Of a stretch of DNA of 64,000 bases, positions 1,056 through 5,100 are shown piece by piece. Under the pieces are notes generated by a model, which did not search any database, was not told the origin of the DNA, and saw only the letters and a program-made list of their open reading frames with translations. Both the position numbers and the translations under genes were made by a program. Source of the DNA: Leucosporidium creatinivorum. Taxonomy: Eukaryota > Basidiomycota > Microbotryomycetes > Leucosporidiales > Leucosporidiaceae. The stretch covers positions 499,425 to 563,424 of the forward strand of contig BCKL01000002.1 of NCBI GenBank assembly GCA_001600635.1, read 5' to 3'. Position 1 is the first letter of the stretch. Each line of letters begins with the position of its first letter.

Positions 1056-1400
1056 TTAGGCCTTCACTAGAGCAGAAGCAGGGGTCAGTAAAGCCTCCCA
1101 GAGCTGGGGAAGAGTGCTCGGCGAGGACGACTCACTGTAGGTAGCCGAATCGATCGTCTCGGGCAGCTCAGTGATAGCGACCTCAAACCTGCTTTGGATA
1201 AGCTTGAGGACTTCCTCGTTCTCGTCCAAGGAGACGAAGGTGATGGCAAGTCCCTTGGTTCCAAAGCGGCCAGCCCGTCTGCGAGTTGAAGTAGGAGGGT
1301 CAGCTGCGTGAGAGCTGGAGGAAAAAAGAACTGAAGACGTGCCCGACTCGGTGGAGGTAGGAGTCGGCATCTCCGGGGGGGGTATCGTGGTTGATGATGA
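1056..1400 (-). CDS. Duplicate set of SUB2 3'-terminal exons (alternative or relic)
   Basis: Three exons, 1343-1400, 1136-1278 and 1056-1066, repeat the last three exons of the adjacent SUB2 gene in the same order, strand and phase. They encode DEAD-box motif VI ([13 protein letters not shown]), the SUB2 C-terminus and a final Met-Lys-Ala-stop split by an intron, as in the main copy. The middle exon is the same length (143 nt) and differs by one residue (Ser to Leu) despite about ten silent changes. The first exon is three bases longer (one extra Pro) and carries Val to Ile and Tyr to His changes. The acceptor has an upstream GCTGAC branch site. The donor after the first exon is GC (gcacgt), not GT. 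No upstream helicase exons are present here, so this is not a full paralogue. It may be an alternative SUB2 3' end or a recent relic; the silent-biased changes favour use. Confidence 0.62.
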
Positions 1401-2127
1401 CTGTGCAACACGAGACGAGATGTCACTGTCAGCTCGGCGCTGGCTCGGCGCTGTTCGGCTCTCCTCTTGTTGTACAGCACTCGCAAGCTGCCTCACAGCG
1501 CGGCACACGCCGATCGGGTCCTACTCGCATGCAATCATCCCTAAACTCCTCCTCCCCCTTAGGCTGAGGCTGCTCAGCGCTCGGCGCTCCTTCGTCCTAG
1601 CGCATGCAGCAACGAGGCCTCACAACTCCAATAATGCTCTCCGCTGATGCTATACAAGACAAGCTGTTCGCTCTACGCTCACAGCTGCACGCCTCGGCGG
1701 GAGCCCCGAGAGAGACGAGCTTGAGCTGAAAGCGTTCGCCGAGCCGAGAAAGCCCACCAAGCTCAGCGCGGGCGGCGATGAGCGGGGCTACCCTGCTCTC
1801 ACAGCAGCACCGGAGCGCTCTTTGATACCTTCCTGTCCGCCGAAAGCCGATTCGATGCTCCAGGAGCAGAAGCAGAAGCTCGAGCCCCGTCGCCGAGCTC
1901 ACTCTGCTTCCTCTCCGCTGCAGTTGTGTTGGTACAATCGCCTCCCACTCGCGTGAGGAGACATTTTCATTCATTTTGTAAGAGACCAATCAATCGGAGA
2001 GGAGGGGGTGGGGGTACTCAGAAGAAGAAGGGGGGGAGGGACTATTGAAGACGGGAGGAGTTGGGCGGGTGGTGGGTGGGAGGGAGAAGGGTAGTGAGGT
2101 ATGGAGGAGCAGTCGACTAGAAGGCGT
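1401..2127. other. Spacer between the two SUB2 terminal exon sets
   Basis: About 730 bp with no supported gene. It should contain the 3' UTR and poly(A) site of the proximal SUB2 isoform. If the distal exons are used, it is intronic. G-rich runs occur near 2010-2090. Confidence 0.4.
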
Positions 2128-5100
2128 TTAGGCGTTCACTGTGGTAGAGCAAGGAGCTAGGTTAGCGACAGCTCGAGCCGGAAAGCAGGAGCGAGGTTCG
2201 GCGCCCGGCCGGCGCGCGACGACTCACTGTAGGTAGCCGAATCGATCGTCTCGGGCAGCTCGGTGATAGCGACCTCAAAACGGCTTTGAATAAGCTTGAG
2301 GACTTCCTCGTTCTCGTCCGAGGAGACGAAGGTGATGGCAAGTCCCTTGGTGCCGAAACGACCAGCGCGACTGCGAAAGAAGCGGGTCAGCGAAGTCGAG
2401 GAGGACGGTAGACGTCGCTGGCTAACCCGACTCGGTGGAGATACGAATCAGCATCCCCGGGAGTATCGTAATTGATGACGACTGTACAACAGCGTAGGCC
2501 CGGTCAGCTCTGCTCCACTCCAGCCTGGCTCGGCGCTCGGCTCGGGACTAACTCACTATTGACCCTCTCGACGTCTATGCCTCGACCGAAAATGTCGGTG
2601 GCGACCAAGACACGCTTCTCGAACGCCTTGAACTGGGTGTAACGACTGATGCGCTCGTCCTGCGAGAGGCCAGAGTGGATGGCGATGGAGGGGAAGTTGC
2701 ACTCGCGGAGGAGGCGGTCCAGCTCGGTCGCGCGCGAGACGGACTTGACAAAGATGCAGACCTATTTTGCCGAGAGAGAGCGAGCGAGTCGATTCGGGGC
2801 GTTAGCTTCTCATCATCCATCTTGCCGCCTCGCTACGTCCGCGCACGCTGAAGAGGGAGAGCTTGGGTTGGGTTGGGGAGAGCGAGCGAAAACTGACCTG
2901 GTTGAACTCCAACGAATCGAGCAGGTCGTTCAACTTGCGGTTCTTGGCGCTCTCCTCGAGGCGCACGAAATGCTGCTGCAGTCCGTGGAGCGTGAGCTTC
3001 TTCTCGTCGTCGACGTAGATCTCGAGGGGCTGTTGCGGGGAGCGAGCGAAGGGAGCCGGGGGAGCGCCGAGGGAGGGGGAGGGAGGGAGAGGAGGAGGAA
3101 GGAGGAAGGTTAGCGCGAGCCCCGAGTACAAACGAGGAAGGAGGAAGGAGGAAGGAGGGAGTCGAGTCGAGTCGAGGAAGCCGAGCGAGGGACAGCGAGA
3201 AAAGACGAACCGACTGCATAAACTTCTTGCACGTAGGCCTGATCTCCTTGGACAAGGTAGCCGAGAACATCATGACCTGCTTATGGTGGGGGGTGGACTT
3301 GAAGATCTCTTGCACGTCGCGGCGCATGTCTGTTTAGGTGGTCCGAGGCGAGGGTGGGCGTTTGAGCGAGGGGAGGATGGCGACCGAGGGCGGGTAGGGA
3401 GAGGAGAGGGAGGAGAGAGCAATAGGTAAGTGACGTGTTTCCGGTAAGGGTGACAGTTGCTTTGCCATTGCCAGCGAGCGGCAACGGGCGGTGGCGTATG
3501 CGGGCGGCGCGATCTCGGCTCGGCTCGGCGAAGAGGGGATCGAGATGCGAGAGAGGGAGGGAGGGAGGGGTGGAAGTGCAGCTATCGCGTCCAAGTCGTC
3601 CTTTGTCGGTCAAAGATGGTTGTCGAGGTGTCGACGTGTCGAAGTGTCGAAGAGGGAGACGAGGGGTGGTGAAGATGGAGAGCGAGGGCTGTTGAAGCGT
3701 CGGGCGGTGGTGCGATTCGAGTTGTCGAAGGAGAGGAGGGGGAAGTGGAAGATGTAGTTAAGGTCGAGGATGTCGTGGGGTGCATGATCTTGGAGAGGGA
3801 GGTCGTCCATCCCTTGTCGAATAAGATGAGAGCGATCCGAGGCTAGAGGGAGTCCGGCCTTGTAGACGACTTGGGTGCGCGATAGTGACTTTGTGGGACG
3901 GGGAGGAAGAGGGTAGGAATGTAGGGAAGTAGAGGGAAGGGGAGAGATTGCCGACGGTGTAGGATGGGCTCCGTGAAAGCTTCCTTGACCGCGCCTTGCC
4001 GCCGCTGCCGCCGCCAAGATGACATTTGACTCCACCGCTGATGACCGCCGCCGCCCGCCGAGGTATCCTCCATCGATCTCGCTACTCAATAAAGAGCACG
4101 AGAAGAAGGGAGAGAGAGAAATAGATCCGAATGGGGTCGAGTCGAGACGCGTGCTCGAGTCGCAAGGTCGTCCGATCCGAGTCGAAGTCGTGGGAGAGAT
4201 TGAAGTGGCCGAGGTAGGAAGACTGATTACTAACCAACAGCTTCGAGCATCTTGTCGCACTCGTCGAGCACGAAATGGCGGACCGAAGCGCACTTGAGGC
4301 TCTTGTCGCGCACGAGGGCGTTGAGGCGACCGGGGGTTCCCACGACAATGTGAGGGCACTTGTCCTTGTTCTTGAGGAGGTCCTGGTCCACCTTGACGCT
4401 CGTTCCACCGTAGAAAACGCCGGTGCGGACGTCGGGCATGTACTTGGAGAAGCGGGCGTACTCGTTCTTGATCTGGTAGGCGAGCTCGCGAGTGTGGCAG
4501 AGGACGATGACCGAGACCTCGCCGGCAACGGGCTCGATCTGCTGGAGGGTGGCAGAGACGAAGACGGCGGTCTTGCCTGTTGGAGGGGAGTAGAGGTTAG
4601 CGGGCTGAGGCTGGAGAAGGGGCAGCGGAGCGGCGAGGCGGGCGCCAGCAATCGCGGATTCAAGAAGACTAACCCATTCCCGACTTGGCCTGGCAGAGGA
4701 CGTCCATGCCGAGGATAGCCTGAGGGATGCACTCCTGCTGGACTGTAGGCGTGTAAAGGTAGAGAGAGAGAGAGTTAGCTACATCGCTCCCTTCCGACGC
4801 CGCAAACACATTCCAACGCGTGGACGCTACTGCTGAGCCTCCAAGCTGTAGACGAAGACTGACCCTCGGAAGGGTGTTCGAAACCCAAGTCTGAGATGGC
4901 ACGGAGCAACTCTGGCTTGAGCAAGAAGTCGCGGAAGCCAGTCGAGTGAACACCAACGTAGGAGCCCTTCTGGTCCTTGGAGTCGACCTGAGCATCCTCT
5001 CCCTCTACGGCGGTAGGGGCCGAGATGGTAGGGGTCTCGATGGGATCCTCCTCGTAATCTGCAGGGTGGTAGAGCAGCAGAGCAGCAGAGAGAGAGGTGA

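Follow-up and report, generated by a model that had tools for sequence, protein, structure and literature searches.

In regard to the 3′ end of SUB2, the locus described here raises the question of whether a gene for a general splicing and export factor may choose between two ends, or whether the second of these ends is what remains of a duplication. The gene, a fungal UAP56/DDX39B gene, lies on the minus strand of the window, i.e., the whole 64,000-nucleotide stretch of Leucosporidium creatinivorum DNA that was analysed. It was modelled as nine stretches running from 5000 down to 2128 (minus strand), encoding 403 residues, a count from which the N-terminus is left out. The product matches human DDX39B with an E value of 2e-193 and yeast SUB2 with 2e-189, and among the best 60 of 130 matches it scores 645.8 bits to DDX39B, while the next group, eIF4A-III/DDX48, follows at 257.9 bits. 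By this full-length match over other DEAD-box proteins, the main product belongs to the Sub2/UAP56 DEAD-box ATPases. A second full SUB2 or any other copy was not found among the best candidates scored in the 27.7-Mb genome, where matches to the SUB2 protein outside this locus do not exceed 51% identity. All eight introns of the modelled main gene begin with GT, and seven of them measure 56-181 nt. The remaining one, at window positions 4234-3330 (minus strand), is 905 nt long; it holds no known RNA family at the gathering threshold, as does the window in general, and an intron of this length, in the gene for a splicing factor, could be subject to regulation.

The sequence-only reading had described two 3′-terminal exon sets of SUB2, about 1.07 kb apart and with matching phases, branch sites and acceptors, and comparison of the sequences bore this out, with both coordinates and counts correct (Table 1). 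The second set lies downstream of the first, phases, acceptors and stop are the same in both, and branch motifs of the CTRAY type, which is the branch-site consensus, match between the sets as read from the sequence. Identity amounts to 46/55 aligned bases for exon a, 132/143 for exon b and 10/11 for exon c. Since the alignment of b1 and b2 lies 25 s.d. above 1000 shuffles, a chance likeness of the b exons is ruled out, and the count of about ten silent changes and one residue change given earlier for this 143-nt exon was found again, with ten silent base changes and Ser>Leu. Set 2 preserves all three acceptors, the b2 donor, the frame and the stop, it bears motif VI and the C-terminus in frame, and it could, as was correctly stated, complete the protein. 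The two sets are thus homologous tandem exons of equal phase, as expected of duplicated alternative terminal exons. No third copy or other remnants were found in the 9,951 bases beyond the window start, nor in the genome searches. An assembly of two haplotypes in tandem was rejected by inference from the divergence of the sets, which is about 10%.

Table 1. Features of the duplicated SUB2 3′ end (window positions).
Feature	Position	Strand	Remarks
SUB2 exon upstream of the duplicated block	2557..2761	-	donor gtgagt at 2556, would serve either set
Exon a1, 55 nt, set 1	2427..2481	-	translation matches UAP56/Sub2
Exon b1, 143 nt, set 1	2228..2370	-	motif VI HRVGRAGR spans a1/b1
Exon c1, 11 nt, stop, set 1	2128..2138	-	
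Repeat R2	1456..1547	.	copy (R1) at contig C2:498761-498852, beyond the window and ~2.1 kb distant
Residual intron before set 2	1401..1455	-	branch motif gagctgac, acceptor gcacag
Exon a2, 58 nt, set 2	1343..1400	-	V>I, Y>H, +Pro
Set-2 a-b intron	1279..1342	-	GC-AG ends, gcacgt...cgcag
Exon b2, 143 nt, set 2	1136..1278	-	single residue change, S>L
Exon c2, 11 nt, stop, set 2	1056..1066	-	N>K

As for the origin of the second set, traces of a tandem duplication are found around it. The repeats R2 and R1 are 79% identical over 92 ungapped bases, and a search of the genome, skipping very common words, found no further copy. With looser scoring, their likeness reaches 1629 on one side (0/200 shuffles as high), and on the other side it ends at 1456, where intron-like sequence leading to exon a2 starts. 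This sharp end may be read as the junction of a tandem duplication. Sequence 1401-1455 bears a weak likeness to intron 2556-2482, with a local score of 29 against a maximum of 23 in 200 shuffles, the words common to both being frequent genome-wide. Likewise, the region 3′ of set 1 bears a weak collinear likeness to the region beyond set 2; none of 200 shuffles reached it under looser scoring, and it is not significant under stricter scoring, where 54/200 shuffles were as high. The repeat pair, together with the weak collinear similarity of the flanks, supports a head-to-tail duplication that would have comprised the end of the intron, exons a, b and c, the 3′ flank and the repeat; its junction would lie within the intron preceding the set or next to it. 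A junction at 1456 fits both a partial duplication and a full-length tandem gene later cut back. The 92-base repeat, ungapped at this identity amid scrambled surroundings, may itself be under constraint. Another local tandem duplication near SUB2 is formed by a pair of sequences (L003) at window-relative positions -6066..-5765 and -3620..-3317, about 2.4 kb apart, which share 79% identity across 305 alignment columns; long open frames are present in this region.

The divergence of the two sets is mostly silent. Over the three exons, 16 codons differ silently, four amino acids are changed (V>I, Y>H, S>L and N>K) and one codon is inserted, which corresponds to a dS of 0.42, a dN of 0.032 and a ratio of 0.077. 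Because a low dN/dS alone could reflect constraint on set 1 only, set 2 was simulated as a neutrally evolving sequence. If half of the silent changes are placed on its branch, 16-18 amino-acid changes are expected, and four or fewer without a stop occur with P of 0.017-0.025; the best-fitting omega for set 2, among seven values tried, is 0.2. If four rather than eight silent changes belong to set 2, the neutral P rises to 0.14-0.21. Neutral evolution of set 2 is disfavoured, with moderate significance (P ~0.02) when its branch is given half of the silent changes. The distribution of gaps points the same way: the three introns (220 set-1 bases) contain 22 gap openings and the two internal introns (145 bases) 14 of these, counts that vary with the alignment and, for the upstream intron, take in about 20 repeat bases, while the exons contain one gap of exactly 3 bases. 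A past coding constraint on set 2 is therewith moderately supported by comparison of the two copies and, because neutral evolution is disfavoured, set 2 was probably translated after the duplication, either as an alternative 3′ end or within a second gene that has since been truncated.

The silent differences are clustered, with 13 in 25 codons on the 5′ side and then 3 in 43 (Fisher P 5e-5, for a 25/43 split picked after seeing the data), which suggests partial gene conversion or, in the 3′ part of exon b, an additional constraint; neither would by itself give the low dN/dS. It could be proposed that partial conversion between the sets explains their similarity as a whole and that set 2 has no function of its own. 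In line with such conversion, apart from the clustering, an identical run crosses the end of exon b into the first bases of the next intron. However, conversion erases replacement differences along with silent ones, 13 silent versus 2 replacement changes are seen in the first 25 codons, which look older, and the longest stretch of identical coding sequence (38 bases) is of unremarkable length (P 0.23), so that this explanation appears very unlikely. Of the alternative offered earlier, a duplication kept similar by gene conversion, partial conversion is allowed by the clustering, but conversion by itself would not produce the low ratio.

Use of set 2 depends on its first donor. The a2-b2 intron begins with a GC donor, gcacgt, at the place of the a1-b1 donor gttagc, and in the alignment it coincides with a 9-base gap at the set-1 donor. 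The splice-site pattern of the two sets is thus conserved for the acceptors and the b donor, with GC instead of GT at the a2 donor. On reading the sequence, a search that is not exhaustive, no in-frame GT alternative to the GC donor was seen. Its U1 pairing energy is -3.9, compared with -3.4 to -7.9 for the GT donors, and its pairing does not span the exon-intron junction; such energies are a crude guide, since gttcgt, a constitutive donor, came out weaker than GC. Frames agree for a splice from 2557 to 1400, which would require a 1,156-nt intron (2556-1401) and read-through of the set-1 3′ end. An intron of that length would be out of the ordinary for this gene, even though it has the 905-nt one.

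At the protein level, both sets complete motif VI (HRxxRxGRFG) as HRVGRAGRFG, though for set 2 this requires splicing at the GC donor. Exon a1 encodes V-I-N-Y-D-T-P-G and exon a2 I-I-N-H-D-T-P-P-G, that is, Val is replaced by Ile, Tyr by His within the NYD motif, and an extra Pro (a CCC codon) is placed between motifs V and VI; in c2, Asn is replaced by Lys. In all 14 distinct helicase segments matched in this genome by a pattern allowing 3 to 9 residues, the distance from Pro to the aromatic residue before motif VI is 5 residues, and in set 2 it is 6. The set-2 His falls on a conserved aromatic site, at which 7 of these segments have Y, 4 have F, 1 has W and 2 have I. The conserved spacing from the end of motif V (NYDxP) to motif VI is accordingly present in set 1 and absent from set 2, and in six alignments, solved relatives differ from set 2 in having no extra residue between NYD and motif VI. 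The Pfam Helicase_C score drops from 91.4 bits for set 1 to 83.9 bits for set 2, which is still a good match. In yeast, the Yra1 C-box is bound at the N-terminal half of Sub2, and it is Sub2-C that contacts the 5′ end of the RNA (PMC5218534); set 2 would accordingly alter the half contacting the RNA 5′ end and not the groove for the Yra1 C-box. The sequence-only reading had included neither the GC donor in set 2, nor the residue changes in a2 and c2, nor the diverged 92-nt repeat.

Taking all of this together, the best explanation, held tentatively and at somewhat less than an even chance, is that set 2 is an alternative SUB2 terminus in use. A tandem duplication of the SUB2 3′ end would have put a second three-exon terminus about 1.07 kb downstream, and some SUB2 transcripts would run past the poly(A) region of set 1 and be spliced from 2557 to 1400, which would yield a Sub2 whose motif V-VI linker is altered. 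As no helicase exons belonging to set 2 precede it, a SUB2 transcript would be the simplest route to its translation; transcription, splicing and function of set 2 are thereby inferred. Having the nearer acceptor and GT donors, set 1 would be the expected default, and set 2 a minor terminus under relaxed but real coding constraint. The GC donor and the unusual distance between motifs V and VI suggest that set 2 has a minor role or one in decay; taken together with Y>H, they are compatible with a specialised minor isoform as well as with decay at an early stage. It had been proposed earlier that mutually exclusive or alternative terminal exons produce two Sub2 isoforms. The mostly silent divergence favours past coding use, whereas the GC donor, the altered a2 and the 1,156-nt intron weigh against current use. 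In a more far-reaching version, which we consider unlikely, SUB2, whose helicase is required in spliceosome assembly and mRNA export, would make the second isoform by choosing the duplicated terminus, the longer motif V-VI linker would alter the cycle of ATP hydrolysis, and the choice of splice might itself be sensitive to Sub2 activity.

The possibility that set 2 is a decaying relic has to be weighed seriously, even if we would place it below an even chance as well. Such a relic could be a partial duplication that was never used, or the end of a full tandem SUB2 that was long constrained before a deletion with one end in the intron cut it short, leaving its last three exons to drift. A truncated full gene accounts for the mostly silent divergence and also for damage that looks recent, namely the GC donor, the extra Pro and Y>H, and the junction at 1456 fits it. 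On the other hand, a remnant of the upstream SUB2 exons was not found elsewhere in the genome among the best candidates scored, and set 2 is so far without a stop or frameshift. The copy that was never used is, in addition, disfavoured by the neutral simulation and by the contrast between exon and intron gaps. Inclusion of both sets in one mRNA, with b1 spliced to a2 and c1 skipped to give a Sub2 with a duplicated C-terminal segment, would keep the frame, as the a+b cassette has phase 1 at either end and is symmetric, but the protein would have motif VI twice, and likewise the last part of its second helicase domain, which would be structurally implausible and makes this highly improbable.

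A regulation of the choice between sets through RNA pairing was also considered, after the RNA docking model with its Dscam-like selector stem. Intron 2556-2482 pairs with approximately 1738-1800 at -74.0 kcal/mol, and none of 60 shuffles was as strong (mean -54.1). However, the inverted DNA-level alignment of the pairing segments scores 27, while 500 shuffles reach up to 31. In a coarser-step control, the observed value of -63.0 was reached by 8/144 real stretches (150 drawn minus 6 overlapping the locus) and by 15/150 GC-matched 75-mers, and the opposite-strand pairing control was stronger, at -70.2. In the fold of 2570-1330, the two candidate docking segments do not pair. The pairing being unexceptional against real-sequence controls, a docking stem regulating set choice was rejected.

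If set 2 is used as an alternative SUB2 terminus, it would represent a fungal case of duplication-derived alternative terminal exons in a general splicing and export factor, as well as a natural test of whether DEAD-box motif V-VI spacing can vary. If it is unused, it would be an example of a duplicated gene end that decays with its coding frame kept and its introns and flanks scrambled. Among the titles and abstract starts listed on fungal duplicated or alternative exons, GC-AG introns and UAP56 splicing, no published report of this arrangement was found, and a scan of viral_contigs found no relative.

In vertebrates, the splicing factor U2AF1 (U2AF35) has the duplicated exons Ab/3, which give two protein isoforms and whose alternative splicing was demonstrated by experiment (PMC5224494). 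Likewise, SUB2 is a core splicing factor with duplicated exons in its own gene; unlike there, the duplication in L. creatinivorum concerns a three-exon 3′-terminal block of a fungal helicase gene. A second comparison is offered by the 'type B' arrangement of WebScipio, in which homologous terminal exons occur in clusters and have multiple poly(A) sites, the program having found 8 such exons on the Drosophila X chromosome (PMC3228551). Although the SUB2 sets form a three-exon block, and the GT versus GC difference at exon a2 departs from a strict reading of the conserved splice-pattern rule, they share with this arrangement tandem homologous terminal exons of similar length and in the same frame.
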